A stretch of DNA of 20,548 nt from a virus: positions 1-20,548 of IMG/VR virus record IMGVR_UViG_3300048103_001146. One strand, 5' to 3'. A program made the position numbers and the translations under genes. The notes under the pieces were generated by a model. The model ran no database searches. It was not told the origin of the DNA and saw nothing but the letters and a program-made list of their open reading frames with translations. Below are positions 5,331-20,096 of the stretch, in pieces (within the stretch, counting starts at the first letter, position 1; each line of letters starts with the position of its first letter).

Positions 5331-6362
5331 ATGAAAAAAATAATAGTAACAGGAGTCACTGGCCAAGATGGAAGTCATATGGTCGATTATCTATTAAAGA
5401 ATACTGATCATGAAATTTATGGTTCGGTGAGAAGATTGAGCGTTAAAAATCACGAGAATATTTTGCATTTAGAAAATGAGCCGCGATTTCACTTGATTGA
5501 CATGGATCTAAATGATGCGCACAGTATGCGCGATGTGATACTTGATATTCAACCCGATTACTTTATCAATTTTGCGGCGCAATCATTTGTCGCAGGTAGT
5601 TGGAATTATCCAATTCAAACATGGGATACAGACGCAGATGCAGTACTACATATTCTTGAGTCAATTCGTCGATTTGTTCCTGATTGTAAATTTTATAATG
5701 CTGGATCAAGCGAAGAGTTTGGTGATGTCATAACAAACCCTCAAAACGAAGATCATCCCCTGCGACCACAAAGCCCTTACGGCGCAGCCAAATGCGCAGC
5801 TAGGCACCTTGTACGTGTCTACAGGGAGTCTTATAACCTCTACGCTGTTCAAGGCTGGCTGTTCAATCATGAAGGTAGTCGTCGCGGTCTTGATTTCGTG
5901 ACTCGTAAAATTTCTCACACAGTAGCAAGAATAAAAATTGCCCTAGAATCAAACAAAACAATCCCCATTTTGAAACTTGGCAACATTGAAGCTCAACGCG
6001 ACTGGAGTGATGCAGAAGATTTCATGGAAGGTGTTTGGTTGATGCTCAATCAAAAGGCCCCAAAAAATTATGTATTGGGTAGTGGCGAGATGCACACAGT
6101 GCGTGAATTTCTTGAAGAAGCTTTAAAATGCGCAGGTATCGAATTTGAATCGCGAGGTACAGAAGCTGATGAAAAATATTATACTGTTGATGGCGAACTA
6201 ATTTTTGAAGTTGATCCAAAATTTTATCGACCCGCAGAAGTGCACGAATTGTGCGGTGATCCATCGCTTGCAGAAAACGAAATGGGCTGGGTTCGCAAAA
6301 CAGATTTTTACGGATTGGTAAAAAAGATGTATCAAAGCGATTATGCTTTGTTGACTCAATGA
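5331..6362 (+). CDS. gmd: GDP-mannose 4,6-dehydratase
   Basis: Converts GDP-D-mannose to GDP-4-keto-6-deoxy-D-mannose, the first committed step to GDP-L-fucose. It is a short-chain dehydrogenase with an NADP-binding glycine motif TGVTGQDGS (7-15), an active-site AGSSEEFG with Ser126 and Glu128, and a YxxxK pair Tyr150/Lys154 in SPYGAAK. NHEGSRRGLDFVTRKI (179-194) is the Gmd family signature. The length of 343 residues is normal. The ATG at 5331 begins directly on the Rossmann strand, which supports this start. It has no Shine-Dalgarno sequence; a TATTAT hexamer lies at 5319-5324 but no good -35 is seen. The stop overlaps the fcl start by 4 bases. Confidence 0.96.
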   Translation: MKKIIVTGVTGQDGSHMVDYLLKNTDHEIYGSVRRLSVKNHENILHLENEPRFHLIDMDLNDAHSMRDVILDIQPDYFINFAAQSFVAGSWNYPIQTWDTDADAVLHILESIRRFVPDCKFYNAGSSEEFGDVITNPQNEDHPLRPQSPYGAAKCAARHLVRVYRESYNLYAVQGWLFNHEGSRRGLDFVTRKISHTVARIKIALESNKTIPILKLGNIEAQRDWSDAEDFMEGVWLMLNQKAPKNYVLGSGEMHTVREFLEEALKCAGIEFESRGTEADEKYYTVDGELIFEVDPKFYRPAEVHELCGDPSLAENEMGWVRKTDFYGLVKKMYQSDYALLTQ

Positions 6363-7315
6363 AGCGCAAATCAATCTTTCTAGCAGGTCACCGCGGAATG
6401 GTTGGGTCTGCAGTTCTCAATTATTTACAAAGCAATGGTTACGAAAATGTAATCACACGAACTCGTGGTGAACTCGATTTGATTAGTCAATCACAAGTTG
6501 ATAGTTTTTTCGCGAAAGAGCGTCCAGATGCAGTAATCATTTGCGCGGCAAAGGTTGGCGGCATTCTCGCAAACAATACATATCGCGCAGACTTTATCTA
6601 TCAAAATCTACAAATAGCAAGCAACCTAATACATGCTTCAAGTAAATATAATGTTCAAAAACTAATCAATCTTGGTAGTTCATGTATATATCCTCGAGAT
6701 GCAAAAATACCAATTGTAGAAGAAAGCCTCTTAACAGATGTATTAGAAAAAACAAATGAACCATATGCTATCGCAAAAATAGCTGCAATCAAATTGTGCG
6801 AAAGTTATTGCGAGCAATACAATAATAATTTTTATTCGATTATGCCGTGCAACATGTATGGGCCGCGAGATAATTTTGATTTGAAGAGTTCACATGTTTT
6901 ACCAGCACTAATAAGAAAAGTACATGAAGCAAAAGAAAGTGGCGCCAAAAATGTGGAAGTTTGGGGAAGTGGTAAACCATTGCGCGAATTTTTATATGTT
7001 GACGATCTGGCGCAAGCAATAACATATTGCCTTGAAAATGTTGACGCGGCAGACATATACAACAAAGGAATTTCGCACATCAATTGTGGATCCGAAGATG
7101 AAGTATCTATTCTTGAATTGACACATTTGATACAAAAGGTTGTGGGCTATCAAGGAGAGATCGTCTTTGACTCTAGCAAACCCGACGGAACCTACCGTAA
7201 AAAAATGGACAACACTCAATTATCAAACATAGGATTCATTGCAAAAACTGCTCTAGAACAAGGGCTCAAACAAACATATGCTTGGTATCTAGAAAATAAA
7301 CAAAAATTTGTGTAA
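6359..7315 (+). CDS. fcl: GDP-L-fucose synthase (epimerase/reductase)
   Basis: Epimerises at C3/C5 and reduces the 4-keto sugar made by Gmd, giving GDP-L-fucose with NADPH. Residues match the E. coli enzyme number for number: Ser107 and Cys109 in LGSSCIYP, Tyr136/Lys140 in PYAIAK, and His179 in KSSHV. The glycine motif AGHRGMVGS (9-17) binds NADP. The length of 318 is typical. It is coupled to gmd by an ATGA overlap, so both enzymes should be made in step. With gmd and the two transferases it forms a complete make-and-attach route that needs only host GDP-mannose. It is followed at once by an AATAAATA motif and the first structural-type gene, so the sugar cassette seems to end here. Confidence 0.96.
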   Translation: MKRKSIFLAGHRGMVGSAVLNYLQSNGYENVITRTRGELDLISQSQVDSFFAKERPDAVIICAAKVGGILANNTYRADFIYQNLQIASNLIHASSKYNVQKLINLGSSCIYPRDAKIPIVEESLLTDVLEKTNEPYAIAKIAAIKLCESYCEQYNNNFYSIMPCNMYGPRDNFDLKSSHVLPALIRKVHEAKESGAKNVEVWGSGKPLREFLYVDDLAQAITYCLENVDAADIYNKGISHINCGSEDEVSILELTHLIQKVVGYQGEIVFDSSKPDGTYRKKMDNTQLSNIGFIAKTALEQGLKQTYAWYLENKQKFV

Positions 7316-10651: not shown

Positions 10652-10668
10652 GTTTAAAAATTAGACAC

Positions 10669-10695
10669 AAAAAAGCCCTCCATTTCTGGAGGGCT
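10669..10695 (-). terminator. Rho-independent terminator of the outer-membrane protein gene
   Basis: Perfect 9-bp stem AGCCCTCCA (10674-10682) / TGGAGGGCT (10687-10695) with loop TTTC. On the minus strand it is followed by TTTTTT (complement of 10669-10674), as expected of an intrinsic terminator for transcripts coming from 11367. On the plus strand there is no T tract. It starts 27 bases after the stop of the barrel gene. Confidence 0.88.
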
Positions 10696-10722: not shown

Positions 10723-11367
10723 TTAAAAACTTGCAGTCAATGCCGCGGCCACAATACAGTCACTTTCAATTGCATCAGAATTAACCTGATCTGCACTCAA
10801 AGATAATACAAGATTTTTGGCAAGATTTTTACTTGCGCTAATTCCAACAGAATAATAATCAATATTATCGCCACTGCTTAGATCTGTATTACCAAGTGTT
10901 CCGCGAACAGACAAATCAATACTATTGATTGAGATGTCGTGAGACACACCAGCCTCGAATGTATATTGACTTTCATCAACATTACGCGCTGCAGAAAGCG
11001 TTGGACTTAATAATGTATTGAAATCAGCAGACAATACAACATCAAGATTACTTGCTCCATCGAGTTGCTCAAAATGCTCAATTCCACCATAAACAGAAAG
11101 TAGTGAACCGAGACTCTTGCCAATTCCTCCAGACAGAATGTAAACATCTCCATCTGCACCTGCGCTATGTGCGGTTTGTGCGCCGACTGAAACATCAAAT
11201 CCACCCTTTGTGGTAGCATAAGATGCGGACGTTTGTAGAGAGTCTTCTGCGATTAGAGATCCGCGACGAAACACGTCCGAGCCGTAACCAGTGGATAAAG
11301 ATCCAGCAGAAGCTGCGTTAATAGAAAGAACTGCCAAGGCAGCGAGTGTTAGTAATTTATTTTTCAT
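10723..11367 (-). CDS. Secreted outer-membrane beta-barrel (TorF-like porin family)
   Basis: A 214-residue protein with a classic Sec signal peptide: MKNKLL, a hydrophobic core TLAALAVLSI, then the ASA|G cleavage site after residue 21. The mature part begins with GYGSDVFRRGSLIAEDS, like the SDY.FRG start of TorF-type putative porins, and continues as alternating amphipathic strands (SLQTSASYATTKGGFDVSVG, YYSVGISASKNLAKNLVLSL). It ends in Phe (TASF), the C-terminal signal read by the BAM machine. It should therefore sit in the host outer membrane. It has its own sigma70-like promoter and terminator, so it can be expressed apart from the tail genes. A plausible role is to alter the infected cell's surface or permeability, or to exclude other phages, as for the lambdoid PA-2 Lc porin; this is inference. 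Confidence 0.8.
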   Translation of the reverse strand: MKNKLLTLAALAVLSINAASAGSLSTGYGSDVFRRGSLIAEDSLQTSASYATTKGGFDVSVGAQTAHSAGADGDVYILSGGIGKSLGSLLSVYGGIEHFEQLDGASNLDVVLSADFNTLLSPTLSAARNVDESQYTFEAGVSHDISINSIDLSVRGTLGNTDLSSGDNIDYYSVGISASKNLAKNLVLSLSADQVNSDAIESDCIVAAALTASF

Positions 11368-11381
11368 AATTTGAACTGTAG

Positions 11382-11410
11382 ATTATATAGATTTATTATA
11401 GTTTCGTCAA
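11382..11410 (-). promoter_or_regulatory. Sigma70-like promoter of the outer-membrane protein gene
   Basis: Minus strand: TTGACG (11405-11410), a 17-base spacer, then a perfect TATAAT (11382-11387), 14 bases before the ATG. The -35 overlaps the hsp20 stop codon. The expected start of transcription leaves a leader of about 7 bases with no Shine-Dalgarno sequence. Confidence 0.75.
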
Positions 11411-11814
11411 GTAATTTCTATTCTTTTTGTTTTTTGTTGTTTTTTAGGCATGTTTATGTATAGTATGCCATCTTTGTTTGTGGCTTTGATTTTGTTTGTG
11501 TCGAGTTCGTTTTTGAGGGTGAATAGATTGGTCGACTCGCGCGGTTCAAATTGTTGATGTAGATATTTTTCTTCTTGTTGTTTCGGTGATTTGCACACCA
11601 CTTTTAGAACACCATTTTCACAAGATAAATTGATATCCTCTTTTGCGATGCCTGGGCATTCTAATTGTATTTCAATTTCCTTTTCTCTAGATACAATGTT
11701 CGCGCGACGTTTTGACTCAACTGTGTCAAACAGCGAATCAGTAAACAAATCTTCAAGTAGATTGCTCCATGCGTTAGTATTTTTATTGTATGAATTGTTG
11801 ATATAGTATGACAT
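11407..11814 (-). CDS. hsp20: Small heat-shock protein, Hsp20/alpha-crystallin
   Basis: ATP-independent holdase chaperone that keeps unfolded proteins soluble. It is 135 residues long from the chosen ATG. The alpha-crystallin domain spans about 37-125, with the strand VSREKEIEIQLECPGIAKED, the segment ENGVLKVVCK and the family signature ATNKDGILYINMP (111-123). The C-terminal I-x-I anchor is present as IEI (132-134), so oligomer assembly looks intact. A longer frame from a GTG at 11853 adds 13 residues but runs through the candidate promoter and a palindrome, so the ATG at 11814 is preferred. Hsp20 genes are common in marine T4-like phages, where they may assist virion assembly; the target here is unknown. 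It has no terminator of its own before the outer-membrane protein gene. Confidence 0.93.
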   Translation of the reverse strand: MSYYINNSYNKNTNAWSNLLEDLFTDSLFDTVESKRRANIVSREKEIEIQLECPGIAKEDINLSCENGVLKVVCKSPKQQEEKYLHQQFEPRESTNLFTLKNELDTNKIKATNKDGILYINMPKKQQKTKRIEIT

Positions 11815-11826
11815 TTTGTAATTTAT

Positions 11827-11855
11827 ATTTAATTGTTTGAGACTGTGTGTCACAA
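11827..11855 (-). promoter_or_regulatory. Candidate hsp20 promoter
   Basis: Minus strand: TTGTGA (11850-11855), 17-base spacer, TTAAAT (11827-11832), 12 bases before the ATG at 11814. Each box has 4 of 6 consensus bases, but the geometry is the same as in the stronger promoters of this window. A T4-late-like TATAAATT (11820-11827, one mismatch) overlaps it, so the gene could be read early, late or both. Confidence 0.4.
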
Positions 11856-11996: not shown

Positions 11997-12551
11997 TTAA
12001 AATGTATAACCCAACAACTCAATGGTCTTGATTTCTTTTTCAGCAATGATGTCGATTGTTTGTTGTGTATACCACTGTTTGTAGGTTTCATCATATTGGT
12101 ATCCAGGCTGGTAAACTTGTGATTGATCGATCTTATGATCCAAAAGCTCTTCTAGTCTATTAATACATTCATCCCATTGCTCTACTTGTAGAACTTCATC
12201 AACATTAATGAGATACGGATCTAATGATTTTATATGTCGTGAGAAATGTTCGCTCATTATCCAATTTACAAACTCATTCGACTTTGCTTCAGATCGCTCT
12301 TTCAAATTCCAGTGCATTTCAAATAAAGATGCATATCTTTCCCATGGGTTGCGAGCAATAGATACCTTATGTATTTGATCAATATCAACATTTAATATTT
12401 CTCCTGCTCTAGTTAAAGCGGCAGGTGTCGCGTGCAAACTATAACCAAAGCATTTACCGTCATTCGCGTCATAAAATTTACCAAACATGTACCTCGTACC
12501 GGTTTTAGGTGCATTGAAAACAGCGACGTTATGTTGTGTTGATATAATCAT
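11997..12551 (-). CDS. PAPS-dependent sulfotransferase
   Basis: Transfers a sulfuryl group from PAPS to a sugar or other hydroxyl. The 5'-phosphosulfate loop is APKTGTRYM (Pro15-Lys16-Thr17-Gly18-Thr19). The 3'-phosphate site is ARNPWERYASLF (Arg67, Ser75). The end, YTQQTIDIIAEKEIKTIELL then GYTF, has the closing helix and GY.F form of this family. The 184-residue length is small but covers both cofactor motifs. There is no signal or membrane segment, so it is cytoplasmic and would use host PAPS. Its ATGA start overlaps the stop of the 422-residue tail gene, so it is translated with tail proteins. That suggests the acceptor is a tail component or a glycan on it, but a host surface sugar is equally open. 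Confidence 0.82.
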   Translation of the reverse strand: MIISTQHNVAVFNAPKTGTRYMFGKFYDANDGKCFGYSLHATPAALTRAGEILNVDIDQIHKVSIARNPWERYASLFEMHWNLKERSEAKSNEFVNWIMSEHFSRHIKSLDPYLINVDEVLQVEQWDECINRLEELLDHKIDQSQVYQPGYQYDETYKQWYTQQTIDIIAEKEIKTIELLGYTF

Positions 12552-13816
12552 GAGTAATATGTGGTTCTGTTATTAGAATTAGATCGATAATGATGACAAG
12601 GTTGTTCAATTATACTCAACATGTCTGTATCCCACCACGTTGCCTGACTAACTACAGTTTGATTTTTGTATGTTATCGTTTGTATGTCCGAGATATCACT
12701 CATATCTACACTTTGCATATTCATATCGGTATCAAAATATTGTATATCTATATCTCCATTAACATCGTAAAAATAAAAATATTCCATCAACCGACCTTCT
12801 GGTGATTGAAAATCACCATTAATTTGATGCCCGTTGACTGTGATGTACCAGTAGGCATTGTATGTAGTAGCTAGTTGAGCATCACTAGAGACAACCCATT
12901 GATTGTCGCTATCATCTTCAGCTAGTGAGTATGTCGCAGGGTCACCATTGTAAGTGGTGGCATCATCCAGTCGATCCGGATTAAATTCAAATTTGACTAA
13001 ATGTGAGCGATTCATAACGTCTATATCCAAATACCGTTCGTCTCTTCCTTCATACATATCCATCCACCTGGTGAACCCATAATTCTCTGAATTGATTGTG
13101 CTACTTATCGAGTATGATCCATCCCATCCATAATAAAAATATTGTGCATTATCGAAGTCGCCACTGTTAGGCCATATATCAGGATTTCCTGTGCCTTCAG
13201 ATGCGTTGCGAGGTGTTATATTGGTAAATGCCAGTCTAATTTTGTATGGTTTGTTTTTTGTACCACCTGTAAAATTTATCCTCCATCGTGTGTTATCATC
13301 TGTAACCTCCGGTATTTCAAATTTATCACTTGTACCATCTAACGGTACATTAACAACGCTGTATAGAATTGAGTCTACTGTTATTGTTGTTGCTGTCAGG
13401 GTTGTGTATCCAGGTGATACGCCGCCGCCAGTACTAGAGCTCCCGCTAGAGCCAGTAGCTTGAGTTACCCAAGTGTATTCAGAGCCATCCCAACCAAGCA
13501 CTTCTCCACTGGATGCGCCAGTAATATTTAAATGAGAATCCACATCAGAATCAGCGTAACTTGATCCTCCAGAACCGGATCCAATAGCTTCCCACGTGTT
13601 ATTTGTGTCAGTCTTACGATACATGACACCATCGTCATCTACGTACAGTGTCCCTACTGGACTATTATATATTAATTTCTCACCGGCATCTTCAGTACCC
13701 GCGTTATTTGGATCTCCATCAAAGCCTAGTAGGCTTCCGTCAGGCATGACAGTGCCACTTTTGTAGAGAATAACCCTGCGTTGCATTTCGAAATCTAATG
13801 AATCTGTTGTTGCCAT
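12548..13816 (-). CDS. Tail fibre/virion protein, 422 residues
   Basis: Likely distal tail or adhesin protein. N-terminal part (1-80): RRVILYKSGTVMPDGSLLGF then VGTLYVDDDGVMYRKTDTNN, a pattern seen at the start of phage fibre proteins. Then a Gly/Ser linker and a 32-residue module (86-117, SYADSDVDSHLNITGAS ...) that also occurs in the upstream 892-residue protein, then a second Gly/Ser linker (121-132). The C-terminal 280 residues are rich in aromatic and acidic residues (FYYGWDGSYS, MEYFYFYDVNGDIDIQYFDT) and unlike anything I recognise; this may be the binding domain. It starts 4 bases after the larger gene's stop and its own stop overlaps the sulfotransferase start. Confidence 0.72.
   Translation of the reverse strand: MATTDSLDFEMQRRVILYKSGTVMPDGSLLGFDGDPNNAGTEDAGEKLIYNSPVGTLYVDDDGVMYRKTDTNNTWEAIGSGSGGSSYADSDVDSHLNITGASSGEVLGWDGSEYTWVTQATGSSGSSSTGGGVSPGYTTLTATTITVDSILYSVVNVPLDGTSDKFEIPEVTDDNTRWRINFTGGTKNKPYKIRLAFTNITPRNASEGTGNPDIWPNSGDFDNAQYFYYGWDGSYSISSTINSENYGFTRWMDMYEGRDERYLDIDVMNRSHLVKFEFNPDRLDDATTYNGDPATYSLAEDDSDNQWVVSSDAQLATTYNAYWYITVNGHQINGDFQSPEGRLMEYFYFYDVNGDIDIQYFDTDMNMQSVDMSDISDIQTITYKNQTVVSQATWWDTDMLSIIEQPCHHYRSNSNNRTTYYS
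13466..13561 (-). repeat. Shared 32-residue module, copy in the 422-residue protein
   Basis: Encodes residues 86-117, flanked by Gly/Ser linkers. By hand count, 20 of 32 residues equal the copy at 15810-15905 with no gap. At DNA level the stretch at 13527-13546 equals that at 15871-15890 except for one base. Confidence 0.8.
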
Positions 13817-13820
13817 AATT

Positions 13821-16499
13821 TTATGCTGTTTCTTGAATTGTTATTGTTGTATCTACAGAGCTTGCGCTTGTTTTACTAAAATCTAATATGCGAACTGTCA
13901 CAGGTGCACTGTCAGTGCTAGCTAGACACCAACTATTTGTTGTTTGCGTTGTCGTATCGATTGCTTGTCTGCTAGTTACAGACGAATTTCCACTCCAACT
14001 CATTGTAACCTTAGAGTAGTCGACATGCAATACATTAATTGAAACTTCATTGGTTTGCGCGCTCAAATCTATAGTACGAGACACAAAGCCCCCAAATGTA
14101 TATTGATCTCCACTACTAATTGAAGTAACGGTTTTTCCTGCTAAATTTACAGCATTAATTGAAGAGTAATTATGATCCCCCTTCGAATCACTATCATGCA
14201 CACCCATACTGGCTGTAAATGTAGTAGCTGTTTCAGAGTGATTAAATGCTCCTAGTGTTCCATGCGGCGCGCCAAGAGTAGGAGCTTGAAGCAATCTTTG
14301 CCCACCAGTTGATATTACTATGTTGTAATTTTGTTGACTTGTTACATCATTTCCACCACTTCTCATTCTTGTCCCACTATTACTGGTAATACTTAAACTG
14401 GGAGCGGTATTTGCGATATTCACAATAGCTGTTTTACTGGACTGTGATCCATTTTCTCTTCTTTTTACTAATAACTTAAAATTAGCGTTAGATACATTGT
14501 ATCCGCCACCCTGCCTGGAAACACTTTTATTTGCTTGATAACTAGAAGCTTGAGTGATAGTTAATTCAGAGCCTAATGGATCAGAGTATGTATACTCTGG
14601 ATTATTCGACCCCTGATTAGTTACAGTCATGTTTACTGTAGCTTGTTCAGAGTCTTTTAAAGCTTGTTGTCCATCAGGATAAGTGATTGAAGCTGTAGCG
14701 ATAGTTGGAGTTTGATTATTTACCTTTACCTTTGTATCTCCGCTACTAAAAACTGGCCCGTTTTGAGCATTTGTTGTCGAGTGTTTTGCAGCAGCCTTAA
14801 AAGGTAAGTCTTGACCTCCTGCATTATTGCTTACATTTGTTCCAGAAATACTCATGTTTACTGTTGCAGATTTACTTGATACACTCACACTTGAAACAGT
14901 TTGACTTCCGCTCGCATTATTACTATCTCCAGAAAACACAACTGTATTCACATTATTGGTGTCAAAAGTTAAGGTAACAGGAACACTATCTCCATTTTTA
15001 AGTTCTGATTGCTGCACTCCATCAGTTGTTGGATATGTACCGACAGAAGCAGAAAGAATAACCGGTCCACTTAATACATCGACAGTTGTATTTGTAGAGG
15101 TAAATGTTTCACCTTCAGTACCTAATTCATTTTTTGCAGTAATTTTAAATTGTGCTGCAGTTTCTGTCGTTAAAGTAGTTCTTGCTTGAACGGTTATGGT
15201 TGCAGTATTACCATCCATAGAGAAATTTGTACTATCTGATATTGTTCCCGTTGCAAAATCATTTCCTCCTTCGAAAGAAATTTTATCAACATCACTAGAA
15301 TCAAATGTAATATCAAGAGTTATATCGTCTCCATCTTTATAGTGATCCTGCCCATGTGGATGAGAACTAGTAACTTCAACAGCTGTAGCTGAGGGTCCTA
15401 AACCAGCAACTTCTATATCTACATCCTTACTTAATCCTCCATAAGAATATGTGACTGTAACAGTTTCACCTCGATCATCTGTTAAATCAACATCTGCATA
15501 TCCCTCAAACCTTCTCACATAACCTCCACCAATTGAAGTGATAGTTGATGAGCTTATTGGAGATCCATTAATATAAGGAGTTCCCGTCCAGTTACTGGAT
15601 CCAGCTTCCCATTGAATGTAAATTCTAGCTGTTGGAGTGTCAATTAACGCACTCGACACAGGAAGGGCATCGTCTACCTCTGTTTGAGAAGTGTCTTTTG
15701 TTAAATTAGTAATTCCATTATTAAAATCAGCATTATCCCCACAGGTTATATTTGTCACAAAAATACCTGGAGAAGTTGCTGAAGAGCCTCCTGACCCTCC
15801 TGATGAAGTAATCCATTGATAATCGCTACCGTTCCAACTTAATATTTGATTGTCGCTCGCAGCAGTTATGTTTAAATGAGAATCTACATCTGTATTTGCA
15901 TAGCTTTGACTTAATCCATAAGATTCGCTAGGTGATTCAGAGGAAGTTGTATATACCGCCCCAGAGTCATGCACGCTAGCCAATATATTTAGTTTGTAGG
16001 ATGTACTTTCATTTGTATCTCCTAACGAAGGAAGTTCGTCAGAAAATTGAAATGTGACTTGGTAAACCCCAGTAGTTGAAGTTTCAGAGACGTCTGAAAT
16101 CATAACTGCAATGATAGGGTCATTATCGCCTCCAGATAATGTTGCAGTAACAGTTGGTTTTCCCACAAAAACCCTGTCGGCCAAAACAATGGTTTGTTCG
16201 TTACTTTCTGCTCCAGTAGTTAAATTAGAAGTTTCTAAAGAGTATATAGAATAATTTGATGTATTGCTCAACATCGATTCTACAGATTCTGTATTTGCTG
16301 CCAAGCTAGATACATCTTCATCAAACCCTGTATCTCTCACGGATAAACTAGAAATGTCTTGTCCTATTTTAACGGTGGATGTGATCTGCGTAAGATCGTC
16401 CCCCAAAACACTATTGATTATTAAGTTTCCCTCGGTTGCAGTCAATCGGATGTTATCCCCATCGACTGATAATTGTTCAGTTCGCAATATTTTAGCCAT
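13821..16499 (-). CDS. Large tail fibre protein with Ig-like repeats
   Basis: An 892-residue, Ser/Thr/Asp-rich, nearly Cys-free virion protein. The N-terminus MAKILRTEQLSVDGDNIRLT and a helical stretch to about residue 80 look like a virion anchor. Next comes a beta region (100-185), the 32-residue module shared with the next gene (199-230) and a GGSGGSS linker. Then follow at least three related Ig-like beta-sandwich units of about 100-120 residues (about 369-476, 478-596, 598-697), each opening with a strand followed by a K(D/N)(G/S) turn and T-rich strands, e.g. HYKDGDDITLDITFDSSDVD and ELKNGDSVPVTLTFDTNNVN. The C-terminus (700-892) is beta-rich. Ig-like domains in phage tails often bind surface glycans; this is inferred. 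It heads a three-gene coupled unit. AAGG lies only 1 base from the ATG. Confidence 0.78.
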   Translation of the reverse strand: MAKILRTEQLSVDGDNIRLTATEGNLIINSVLGDDLTQITSTVKIGQDISSLSVRDTGFDEDVSSLAANTESVESMLSNTSNYSIYSLETSNLTTGAESNEQTIVLADRVFVGKPTVTATLSGGDNDPIIAVMISDVSETSTTGVYQVTFQFSDELPSLGDTNESTSYKLNILASVHDSGAVYTTSSESPSESYGLSQSYANTDVDSHLNITAASDNQILSWNGSDYQWITSSGGSGGSSATSPGIFVTNITCGDNADFNNGITNLTKDTSQTEVDDALPVSSALIDTPTARIYIQWEAGSSNWTGTPYINGSPISSSTITSIGGGYVRRFEGYADVDLTDDRGETVTVTYSYGGLSKDVDIEVAGLGPSATAVEVTSSHPHGQDHYKDGDDITLDITFDSSDVDKISFEGGNDFATGTISDSTNFSMDGNTATITVQARTTLTTETAAQFKITAKNELGTEGETFTSTNTTVDVLSGPVILSASVGTYPTTDGVQQSELKNGDSVPVTLTFDTNNVNTVVFSGDSNNASGSQTVSSVSVSSKSATVNMSISGTNVSNNAGGQDLPFKAAAKHSTTNAQNGPVFSSGDTKVKVNNQTPTIATASITYPDGQQALKDSEQATVNMTVTNQGSNNPEYTYSDPLGSELTITQASSYQANKSVSRQGGGYNVSNANFKLLVKRRENGSQSSKTAIVNIANTAPSLSITSNSGTRMRSGGNDVTSQQNYNIVISTGGQRLLQAPTLGAPHGTLGAFNHSETATTFTASMGVHDSDSKGDHNYSSINAVNLAGKTVTSISSGDQYTFGGFVSRTIDLSAQTNEVSINVLHVDYSKVTMSWSGNSSVTSRQAIDTTTQTTNSWCLASTDSAPVTVRILDFSKTSASSVDTTITIQETA
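15810..15905 (-). repeat. Shared 32-residue module, copy in the 892-residue protein
   Basis: Encodes residues 199-230 (SYANTDVDSHLNITAAS ... WNGSDYQWI), just before a Gly/Ser linker. It is the partner of 13466-13561, in the same order relative to the linker, suggesting duplication of a fibre segment between adjacent genes. Confidence 0.8.
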
Positions 16500-16588: not shown

Positions 16589-17602
16589 TTAAAAATCGTC
16601 TTCTAGAGATCCGCTTTGTTGGTATTCTCGAACTCGCCGCTCAAAAAAGTTTCCCATGGCCTGTACATCAACAACTTCGCTAAGCCAAGGAAACGGGTTT
16701 TTGTCGCTCGGGAAACGATAATCTAACCCAATACCTTCCAGTCTACGATTGCCTATAAAATGCATATAATCAACAAACATGTCTGCATTCAATCCAAGAA
16801 TACCTGTTGGTAAAACATCGTGTGCATATGCAATTTCAAGCTCAACCGCTTTTTTCATATGATCCACAAATTCCTGCTGAATCTCTTTTGTCCAGATTTC
16901 TGGATTTTGTTCTACAAGAGTATTAATTAGATAAGTTCCAAATGCAATATGCGAGCTTTCGTCACGCAAAGTATATTTAATTTGATCAGAGATACCTTGG
17001 AGTTTGTTTTGTCTACCCAACGCAAGCAGCATAGCGAAACCACTAAAAAAGAACGTTCCTTCGCAAACTATCCAGTATGTAAGAAAGTTTCTTAGAAGTT
17101 CTTGCTTTCCTTCGATTGTGTCGGGGGTAAAATCCTGACGACTAATATCGTTAGTTATATTCATCAAGAAGTCATCTTTAGCTTTGATACTTGGAATAGT
17201 TTCATAAGCTGCAAAGACTTCTTCAATATCAAGATCAAGGCTATCGCATATATAAACTACCGTAAGATTGTGAAGACTTTCTTCAAACGCTTGGCGCAGT
17301 ATATACTGACGACATTCAGCGTCCGTAATGTATTTAAAGGCAGATAACAAAAGATTATTACCAACCAAAGACTCAGATCCAGCAAAAAACCCAAGACAGC
17401 GTTTAACAAGTAATTTTTCATCGTCTGTAATTTCATCGTTTTTCCATTGTTTTATGTCGGCTTGCATACCTATCTCTGTGGGCATCCAATTGTTTGCGCA
17501 ACTTTTTAAGAATAAATCCCATGCAAATTTATGTTTATGAGGTAAGATGCGATTTACACCTGCGGTGTTCTCGGTAAGAAGTTTTCCTGTTTTAGTTTCC
17601 AT
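16589..17602 (-). CDS. nrdB: Class I ribonucleotide reductase small subunit (Tyr-less)
   Basis: Houses the dimetal cofactor that generates the radical used by NrdA to make dNTPs. It is 337 residues, normal length. All six metal ligands are present with the spacing of the Chlamydia class Ic protein: Glu77 (SESLVGNN), Glu108 and His111 (FEESLH), Glu181 (CEGTFFFSG), Glu215 and His218 (RDESSHIAFG). The residue that carries the tyrosyl radical in class Ia/Ib (four after His111) is Val115 (codon 17258-17260), where class Ic has Phe. This suggests a Tyr-independent cofactor such as Mn/Fe; the metal is not readable from sequence. The C-terminal SLEDDF tail should dock into NrdA. It has its own TTGACA promoter in the 52-base gap from nrdA. 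Confidence 0.95.
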   Translation of the reverse strand: METKTGKLLTENTAGVNRILPHKHKFAWDLFLKSCANNWMPTEIGMQADIKQWKNDEITDDEKLLVKRCLGFFAGSESLVGNNLLLSAFKYITDAECRQYILRQAFEESLHNLTVVYICDSLDLDIEEVFAAYETIPSIKAKDDFLMNITNDISRQDFTPDTIEGKQELLRNFLTYWIVCEGTFFFSGFAMLLALGRQNKLQGISDQIKYTLRDESSHIAFGTYLINTLVEQNPEIWTKEIQQEFVDHMKKAVELEIAYAHDVLPTGILGLNADMFVDYMHFIGNRRLEGIGLDYRFPSDKNPFPWLSEVVDVQAMGNFFERRVREYQQSGSLEDDF

Positions 17603-17654: not shown

Positions 17655-20096
17655 TTATTGACAACTCTCACAAGTTCCTCCATTTTTCATAGCTTCAATG
17701 CTGCAAGCTGTTGCTTCGGTTGATTTTTCATCAGTATTAGCTTTCTCAATTTTAGATGCCGCACGATTGCGAAGATAGTATGTAGTCTTCAGCCCAGCTT
17801 CCCAGCAATTCATATACACATCATTCAAATACTTTAATGAGGTAGATTTGTTGTAAAGGTTAAAACTGACTGCTTGATCAATCCATTTTTGGCGTGTCGC
17901 ATTACATTCAATAAGCTTGAACATATCGCGGTCAAATGCTGTTTTGTATTTTTCTTTTAATTCAGTTGGAATGTCGCCATTAAGCAAGGATAAATCACCA
18001 TCAACACTTTTCACAAGCTCGGCAACTTTACTGTTCCAAAGACCTACTGCTTTCATGTCATCAATAAAATGCTGGTTTGTTATAAAGAAGTTGCCGCTTT
18101 TATTTTCATACACAAAGAGAACCGAGAAATTTGGTTCAATACTTTGCTCGACACCATTGATATAACCAATTGTGGCGGTTGGAGCGATCGCCATAACATT
18201 ACTATTCCGCATTCCATGCTCGGCAACGTGGCTACGAAGCTCTTTCCATTCAGATGTAAGGGTTTCACCTCCTCCGACACCAGAAGCCTTTCTGTATTCT
18301 GTGAGAACGTTATACGAATCTATTGGAAAAATATTTTGACTCCATAGTGATCCTTGGTATGTTTCATATGAACCTTTTTCTTTTGCAAGATTCGAGCTTG
18401 CAGAAATAGCGTTGTACGAATAAAACTCAAACAAATGATCATTAAATTTCACAGCCTCATCACTGTCTATATTGATGTTCATTTTGTGCAACACATCATG
18501 CAATGCCATCATCCCCAGCCCAATGGGACGATTTCTTAAATTGCTATTGCTTGCTTCTTTCGTAGGATAAAAATTAAGATCAACAACACTGTCCAATGCT
18601 CGTATAGCAACATGTATTGTATTTTTTAATTTATCATAATCTAAAGTATTGTCATCTTTTAAATGATTGAGTAGATTGACTGATCCAAGATTACAAACTG
18701 CAGTTTCACCAATTTTTGTTTTTTCGCCTTTATCATATTCAGACGCTTTGGTGTGAAGTGTGATTTCGGTGCAAAGATTACTGCTATGTACAATACCTTC
18801 GTGTTGATTAGTATAACGAATATTGCATGGATCTTTGAATGTGCACCATGGATGAGATGTTTCGAACAATACCTTTAGCATTTTCTTCCAAAGCTCTTTT
18901 GCAGGAACTACTCGATAGTTTTTAATAATACCTTCTTCTGCTTGATTACATAGTTTATTATAACGAGAGTCAAAATCTTCAGCGAAACAATCGTGCAAAG
19001 TTTTACCATCTTCTCCAACTGTGTCTCGAGGATCAAAATAATACCAAGCATCTTCATTTTGAACTCGGCGCATAAATTCATCAGGAATCCAAGATGCTGT
19101 ATTCATATCGTGACAGCGTAGACGATCATCACCCGTATTTCTACGAAGATTAAGAAAGTCTTCGAAATCTAAATGCCAAGGTTCAAGATATGCACATCCA
19201 GCACCTGGACGCTTGCCACCTTGATTCACAGCAACTAAAAGATCGTTATAAATCTTCAACCATGGAACTAATCCGCTAGAGATACCATTTGTTCCCTTAA
19301 TGTGAGAGCCTGTAGAACGAAACGGAGTAACATCCAATCCAAGACCGCCTGCATACTTGCTTTTTCGCGCTTCTTGCCAAGCGCCATCAAAAATACCGTC
19401 AATACTATCATCAAATGTATTAAGGTAGCAACTACTAAGCTGAGATCTAGCAGTTCCACTATTAAAAAGAGTTGGAGTAGAAGAAGTATACAAAAATTGA
19501 CTAAAAAGATCATAATACTTAATCGCCCACTCTTCTTTATTCTCTTCGTTTAGAGCAAGTCCCATGGCAACCCTCATCCAAAAACTTTGTGGAGCTTCCA
19601 TGATTTTGTCGTCTTCACGAATAAAATAACGATCTGTGAGAATTTGAATACCAAGATACTTAAAAGAGTTGTCTCGACGAATTCGAAGTGCTTCAGATAA
19701 TTGAGTTAAATCATACTCAAGCATGCGCTCGTTCAGTTTTCCACTTTTAACCAATTTCTTGATTCCCTGAATAAAACTCTTTCGATACTGCAATCGAAAA
19801 GCGTCGCTGTCAACACCTTCCTTGAATACTTCTTTATATACTGTGTTGAGTAGAAGTCGAGCTGCGGCATAACTATAATTAGGCTCTTTCTCTATCTTTT
19901 CTCGTGCGCTTAATATAAGTGACGTGTCGATTTCTTTGGTTGTAATTTTATCGTACAGCTGAAGTTGTGCGTCTAATACAATCTCACTGACTGAAACGTC
20001 GGACACTCCTTCACACGCACGCTCTACATTAGTATTAATCTTCTCGACAATAAAATCCTGAAGACGACCATTTCTTTTTTTTACTTTTATATCCAT
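17655..20096 (-). CDS. nrdA: Class I ribonucleotide reductase large subunit
   Basis: Reduces ribonucleoside diphosphates to deoxy forms for phage DNA synthesis. It is 813 residues. An N-terminal ATP-cone (about 3-93, KVKKRNGRLQDFIVEKIN) gives allosteric activity control. Active-site residues: Cys223 (SSCYLNTFDD) and Cys468 (AVCNLGSVNL) form the redox pair, and Asn440, Cys442 (thiyl) and Glu444 lie in SNLCTEI. The radical-path Tyr773-Tyr774 pair is in TTYYLRN. The C-terminal tail has the reducing CESC (809-812). Everything needed for activity is visible. It is transcribed from a TTGACA promoter 12 bases before the ATG and followed by nrdB after 52 bases. The start at 20096 fits the beginning of the cone domain. 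A hydroperoxide or thioredoxin partner is not in the window. Confidence 0.97.
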   Translation of the reverse strand: MDIKVKKRNGRLQDFIVEKINTNVERACEGVSDVSVSEIVLDAQLQLYDKITTKEIDTSLILSAREKIEKEPNYSYAAARLLLNTVYKEVFKEGVDSDAFRLQYRKSFIQGIKKLVKSGKLNERMLEYDLTQLSEALRIRRDNSFKYLGIQILTDRYFIREDDKIMEAPQSFWMRVAMGLALNEENKEEWAIKYYDLFSQFLYTSSTPTLFNSGTARSQLSSCYLNTFDDSIDGIFDGAWQEARKSKYAGGLGLDVTPFRSTGSHIKGTNGISSGLVPWLKIYNDLLVAVNQGGKRPGAGCAYLEPWHLDFEDFLNLRRNTGDDRLRCHDMNTASWIPDEFMRRVQNEDAWYYFDPRDTVGEDGKTLHDCFAEDFDSRYNKLCNQAEEGIIKNYRVVPAKELWKKMLKVLFETSHPWCTFKDPCNIRYTNQHEGIVHSSNLCTEITLHTKASEYDKGEKTKIGETAVCNLGSVNLLNHLKDDNTLDYDKLKNTIHVAIRALDSVVDLNFYPTKEASNSNLRNRPIGLGMMALHDVLHKMNINIDSDEAVKFNDHLFEFYSYNAISASSNLAKEKGSYETYQGSLWSQNIFPIDSYNVLTEYRKASGVGGGETLTSEWKELRSHVAEHGMRNSNVMAIAPTATIGYINGVEQSIEPNFSVLFVYENKSGNFFITNQHFIDDMKAVGLWNSKVAELVKSVDGDLSLLNGDIPTELKEKYKTAFDRDMFKLIECNATRQKWIDQAVSFNLYNKSTSLKYLNDVYMNCWEAGLKTTYYLRNRAASKIEKANTDEKSTEATACSIEAMKNGGTCESCQ

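Follow-up and report, generated by a model that had tools for sequence, protein, structure and literature searches.

Why would a virus carry a gene for an outer-membrane channel? The question is raised by a stretch of viral DNA of 20,548 nucleotides (IMG/VR record IMGVR_UViG_3300048103_001146, positions 1 to 20,548; hereafter the window, meaning the whole stretch), in which an initial annotation had marked an outer-membrane barrel gene with a signal peptide, a promoter and a terminator of its own, lying inside a late-gene region (Table 1). Phage outer-membrane proteins and TorF-type porins are both already known, and the barrel of the window is a variant of these; phage-own outer-membrane barrels have so far mostly been scattered annotations without function.

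Table 1. The barrel gene, its predicted signals and its neighbouring genes in the window.
Feature	Position	Strand	Basis and remarks
TorF-like outer-membrane barrel gene	10723..11367	-	ORF, 12-stranded model, purifying selection, TorF profile match
Sec signal peptide, cleavage between ASA and G	11305..11367	-	Residues 1-21; sequence, low-confidence model helix 2-16, kept in relatives
Sigma-70-type promoter, TTGACG-N17-TATAAT	11382..11410	-	11/12 consensus matches; -35 box overlaps hsp20 stop codon
Intrinsic terminator, AGCCCTCCAGAAATGGAGGGCT plus T run	10664..10695	-	Stem 10695-10674, 9 bp, GC-rich, then TTTTT
hsp20, directly upstream of barrel	11407..11853	-	Pfam HSP20, 6.5e-17; likely ATG at 11817
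nrdB	16589..17602	-	Gene order shared with close relatives
nrdA	17655..20096	-	46% identity to an annotated phage nrdA by tblastn

Taken alone, the barrel protein matched no family in Pfam (E ≤ 0.1), NCBIfam (E ≤ 1) or PHROG, and its sequence found neither a PDB chain nor an annotated phage; our literature search likewise found no paper describing this phage barrel gene. IMG/VR was scanned with the barrel protein, with the products of the nearby hsp20 and nrdB genes and with growing alignments, which yielded about 40 distinct barrel relatives in IMG/VR contigs and an alignment of 39 rows (A4) spanning 26–97% identity to the window protein. Among the viral records searched, 28 of the 43 large related contigs carry the barrel, and pairwise dN/dS values of 0.04–0.15 (about 0.1; eleven pairs) indicate purifying selection on the gene. 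When five family members were compared with annotated phages by tblastn, nothing was found save one marginal partial match, while the phage barrel profile also retrieved a bacterial protein, L198 (E 4.5e-8). Two MAG contigs, labelled ‘Flavobacteriaceae’ (L127) and ‘Proteobacteria’ (L128), were considered as host copies of the gene and rejected; they do not identify the host, because their neighbours are phage-type genes. Beyond these two MAGs, a search of 398 genomes from the L128 phylum returned one clear (E 4.5e-8) and one weak match, and a single weak match came from the L127 phylum (198 genomes).

The ORF encodes 214 amino acids with the C-terminal residues LTASF, and the mature protein of 193 residues has a pI of about 4.1, in line with the strong acidity of mature proteins throughout the family (pI 4.05–4.55). 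The Sec signal with its ASA and G site, first noticed in the window protein, proved to be conserved among the relatives. Our call relied on motif inspection for a small-x-small cleavage site: the window signal reads MKNKLLTLAALAVLSINAASA followed by G, with a hydrophobic peak at residues 3–25, a K or R occurs within the first six residues in all 39 aligned relatives, and 38 of the 39 have a small-x-A/G site at residues 18–24. The terminal Phe, which belongs to the BAM signal, is likewise found in the window protein and in every row of the alignment (39/39).

Amphipathic strands had also been read from the sequence, and structure prediction returned the barrel fold that they implied. With alignment A4, AlphaFold2 gave a confident model (pLDDT 89.2, pTM 0.80) of 12 strands with short turns, outer connections of only 2–6 residues and a low-confidence signal region, whereas three near-identical sequences as input gave a pLDDT of only 27. 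Hydrophobic and polar residues alternate along the strands, and the best fold neighbours in the PDB are outer-membrane barrels, namely the copper transporter PcoB (E 1.8e-6, TMq 0.64), KdgM (TMq 0.61), NanC (TMq 0.59) and VhGalP. PcoB, KdgM and NanC are 12-stranded small channels whose folds align with the window barrel over nearly the full length, but their sequence identity to it is 8–13% and their substrate is not transferable. The viral models closest in fold are barrels of other phages, including the outer-membrane protein of Aeromonas phage phiAS5 (E1A206; TMq 0.64); this protein and those of Vibrio phage nt-1 (R9TIU5) and Synechococcus phage S-CBWM1 are likewise predicted outer-membrane barrels, at about 10% identity to ours. 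As far as sequence and model reach, the window gene is a real, conserved, phage-encoded outer-membrane barrel.

The TorF-like start pointed out in the initial annotation is right as family kinship, the window sequence itself lying below the TorF/Gcw_chp cut-off. Two relatives exceed the Gcw_chp (PF09694) cut-off of 24 bits, L109 with 30.4 bits (residues 24–207 on model positions 11–209 of 230) and L042 with 29.8 bits (best stretch partial), and six match TIGR02001, ‘TorF family putative porin’ (best E 1e-6). When A4 was compared with twelve bacterial TorF-like proteins, hhalign gave a probability of 97.6% (174 columns, E 3.1e-12). L198, one of these twelve, had been retrieved by the phage profile and is so not independent; the remaining eleven were either taken from a Pfam search made separately or far weaker matches. 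The barrel finds TorF through its relatives and through profile–profile comparison, while the window protein alone matches no porin family. Phage and bacterial proteins share the signal peptide, the C-terminal Phe and an SDYxxRG start, after which Q, G, Y-x-G, E and Y-G follow in identical order. The phage barrels differ in being shorter (about 193 mature residues), in their very short connections, in being acidic throughout (pI about 4.1) and in being phage-borne, often with a two-helix partner. On this sequence evidence the family is ultimately related to bacterial outer-membrane proteins. ‘Porin’ is a putative term even in the bacterial family; the torF of Shewanella is listed as the outer-membrane porin of a TMAO-reductase system (PMC5955497), which does not fix a substrate. 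A further phage-encoded barrel, the cyanophage outer-membrane-protein-like Phage_OMP (PF24653; phrog_417), was weakly matched by 9 of the 39 family members (best E 3.8e-4); the matches inspected were partial, at 17–20 bits (maximum 20.4) against a cut-off of 27, the window protein had none, and Phage_OMP is a 122-position domain, unlike the window barrel.

An analogy had been drawn with Lc, the porin of lambdoid phage PA-2. Lc, from a temperate coliphage, is a trimeric porin of OmpC type with 16 strands, and the likeness consists in a phage bringing its own outer-membrane channel. We consider the analogy weak: the window bears no sign of a lambdoid phage, and its barrel shows no OmpC-like 16-stranded fold or sequence, having instead 12 strands, a TorF-type sequence, the short outer connections described above and a place in a large marine phage group.

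That the gene has its own promoter and a strong terminator was confirmed, and both signals are conserved in relatives. Chance alone would seldom give the 11/12 promoter score: after dinucleotide shuffling of the 75-bp leader of the barrel gene, 0.7% of the sequences reached it. In the branch with hsp20 ahead of the barrel, all 21 loci tested, the window among them, have a promoter score of 10–12/12 and a -10 box 8–16 nt before the ATG, despite differing spacers and changed flanks; barrel loci in other gene contexts are without the promoter and lie close behind another gene. Hairpins similar to that of the window occur at the same place in relatives of its barrel. The barrel gene is preceded by no Shine-Dalgarno motif, which is normal for this genome because such a motif is found upstream of only 1 of the 20 window genes examined, and translation initiation in the window seems to be independent of it. 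Promoter-like TTGACA-N17 sites, which resemble the barrel promoter, also lie just before nrdA (20137–20109, minus strand) and nrdB (17637–17609, minus strand), and the three sites are possibly one early promoter class.

The placement inside a late-gene region is only partly right: structural-type and fibre-like genes do lie around the barrel in the window, but the gene in fact closes an nrdA-nrdB-hsp20 cluster. The late-region impression arises because fibre-like and other genes (11997–16499) intervene between nrdB and hsp20 and because genes of structural type run towards the barrel from the left. In L003 and L010 the gene order is simply nrdA-nrdB-hsp20-barrel, and Hsp20 occupies position -1 of the barrel in 18 compared neighbourhoods. 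Other relatives have the barrel behind or near an Endonuc_Holl-type (Holliday-junction-resolvase-like) nuclease, with a dUTPase, a nucleotide kinase, a DNA methyltransferase and a GMP-reductase-like protein as further neighbours (names read from translations, Endonuc_Holl excepted). This setting of nrdA/nrdB, hsp20 and nucleotide- and DNA-metabolism genes points to action during infection rather than exit.

Several other genes of these neighbourhoods may be recorded here. Two adjoining window genes (5331–6362 and 6359–7315, plus strand) encode a GDP-mannose 4,6-dehydratase and a GDP-fucose-synthase-like epimerase, with which the phage carries the beginning of a nucleotide-sugar (fucose) pathway. 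The fibre-like protein at 13821–16499 (minus strand; 892 aa) matches with residues 427–844 a PHROG labelled ‘tail sheath’, a label that shared repeat domains probably explain. In a close relative a subtilase gene (Peptidase_S8; L002:2018–3319, plus strand) has been inserted between nrdA and nrdB; its product has a linker of KPQP repeats and a hydrophobic segment at the C-terminus.

Hints as to the host come from two exported-type proteins near the barrel. Thirteen neighbourhoods contain a member of a cluster represented by an exported DUF1549/DUF1553 protein, and a similar number contain a DUF1501 protein with a Tat-like start; examples are L110:6608–9007 (plus strand; DUF1549/DUF1553, PSCyt2/PSD1) and L124:8600–9940 (plus strand; DUF1501), and other relatives have corresponding genes close to the barrel. 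DUF1549/DUF1553 and DUF1501 proteins are typical of planctomycetes and verrucomicrobia (PVC bacteria), and their presence near the barrel thus hints at a PVC-type host. A DUF1553 search of 200 genomes of the L128 phylum gave no signal, and its controls gave none either; the DUF1501 protein had no match among annotated phages.

What is new is a conserved two-helix partner that stands beside the barrel in most related contigs and never apart from it. A protein of ~80 amino acids with two predicted membrane helices is encoded directly 3' of the barrel, after a gap of 7–33 nt, in 23 of the 28 barrel-bearing large contigs and in the two MAG contigs, and among the 43 viral records searched it was never found without the barrel. 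Both of its ends are predicted to lie inside in most members, the loop is short and acidic, and the conserved motif GLLVVAQVVFG..NVIGNLQ..GFVG.GASLAG is seen in L098, L103, L104, L118 and others. The partner belongs to no Pfam or PHROG family. Homology to T4 Imm was rejected (hhalign probability 0.1%), the two proteins being alike only in size and two-helix build, and a spanin-like pairing of barrel and partner was rejected on topology, the periplasmic loop of the partner being too short. On the other side of the barrel, L223 (8776–8955, minus strand) encodes directly upstream a 59-aa membrane peptide without a Pfam match, with a GNVGEH motif near its end that can also be read ahead of the barrel in L123 and L128.

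Five records, including the contigs of the window's closest relatives (L002 and L003), have the barrel without the partner. The barrel tree places two separate partner-less clades beside partner-bearing rows and needs two changes, which of them are losses depending on the root. A hairpin of the GCCACCCAGAAATGGGTGGC type with a T run follows the partner gene in the partner-bearing L118, L098 and L026, and a hairpin of this type stands directly after the barrel in the partner-less L110, L112 and L119 and in the window. This comparison of terminators points to partner loss in the window's lineage and suggests, as the simplest reading of the sequences, that the window unit derives from an ancestral promoter-barrel-partner-terminator unit. 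Since the lineage of the window lacks the partner, the barrel alone must be useful.

As to what that use would be, we favour, at slightly less than an even chance, a small TorF/Gcw_chp-type 12-stranded channel that alters uptake in the infected cell and has been retained across a large marine group of tailed phages. Host RNA polymerase would transcribe the gene from the sigma-70-type promoter early or midway in infection. Sec would export the product, and BAM would insert it into the outer membrane while the infected cell is still alive; there it would most likely form a narrow, acidic and probably cation-favouring channel. During the production of nucleotides and virions by the phage, such a channel would alter the uptake of solutes or the balance of the periplasm, and in most relatives it would be encoded together with the ~80-aa protein, whose two predicted helices would lie in the inner membrane. 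Many conserved polar and aromatic residues (D31, R35, Q45, H98, E100, R128, E138 and D162) are located in the outer strand halves of the model; the higher conservation of these halves is a trend only (p = 0.06), with inside and outside assigned by assuming the usual topology, and fits the mouth of a channel or a site for a ligand, not decoy loops that vary. Together with the acidic pI and the short connections, these residues suit a small selective channel better than a variable-loop decoy.

The main and serious rival to the channel is superinfection exclusion, in which the barrel, with its partner where present, would occupy, mask or alter a phage receptor or the DNA-entry route; we regard this as rather unlikely, though well worth weighing. 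Early exclusion proteins that act at the outer membrane are established, as in phage T5, whose Llp jams the receptor FhuA and so excludes other phages (PMC9586334), and a two-layer unit of an outer-membrane barrel and an inner-membrane two-helix protein would suit such a role. The T4 record annotates Imm (83 aa), a small membrane protein acting at DNA entry, as immunity to superinfection, but the partner has no profile similarity to it. The conserved promoter of host sigma-70 type would also fit exclusion; the outer connections of the barrel, however, are very short and not hypervariable, and two lineages have kept the barrel without the partner.

An auxiliary lysis unit, composed of an outer-membrane destabiliser and a holin-like peptide, appears improbable. 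The partner, with two predicted helices and both ends predicted inside, does resemble two-helix holins, and the peptide upstream of the barrel in L223 would be a second small component, but none of the neighbours, which are nucleotide- and DNA-metabolism genes, was recognised as a lysis gene, and the loop of the partner could not span the periplasm in a spanin-like manner. Far less probable still is a virion or assembly component, for instance a spike or a membrane-associated part of the baseplate. Structural-type genes do flank the barrel in the window, yet elsewhere it is linked to hsp20/nrd or nucleotide genes, its conserved Sec signal would export it from the cytoplasm, where virions assemble, and its own promoter and terminator and its TorF homology also speak against this. 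A neutral passenger from the host, of no benefit to the phage, would accord with the kinship to bacterial TorF-type genes but is strongly disfavoured by the purifying selection on the gene, as well as by its frequency in the large related contigs and its conserved promoter and terminator, and we give it hardly any credence.

Beyond the channel itself, barrel and partner may constitute a dedicated two-membrane phage unit (outer plus inner) that reshapes the cell envelope during infection, either as an exclusion system or as an uptake conduit, and that is widespread in largely undescribed large (up to ~200 kb) marine phages, with hosts that are maybe PVC-type and with a single-part version in the window's lineage; this broader proposal is tentative, and we would not yet call it likely. 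Retention of the barrel by many relatives, often together with the partner, suggests remodelling of the infected-cell surface, and the linked exported DUF1549/DUF1553 and DUF1501 proteins hint at unusual hosts and at a wider envelope-directed gene set. The family can be traced through about 40 related phage sequences in a poorly described marine group, and its two small genes make it testable why a virus would carry an outer-membrane channel.
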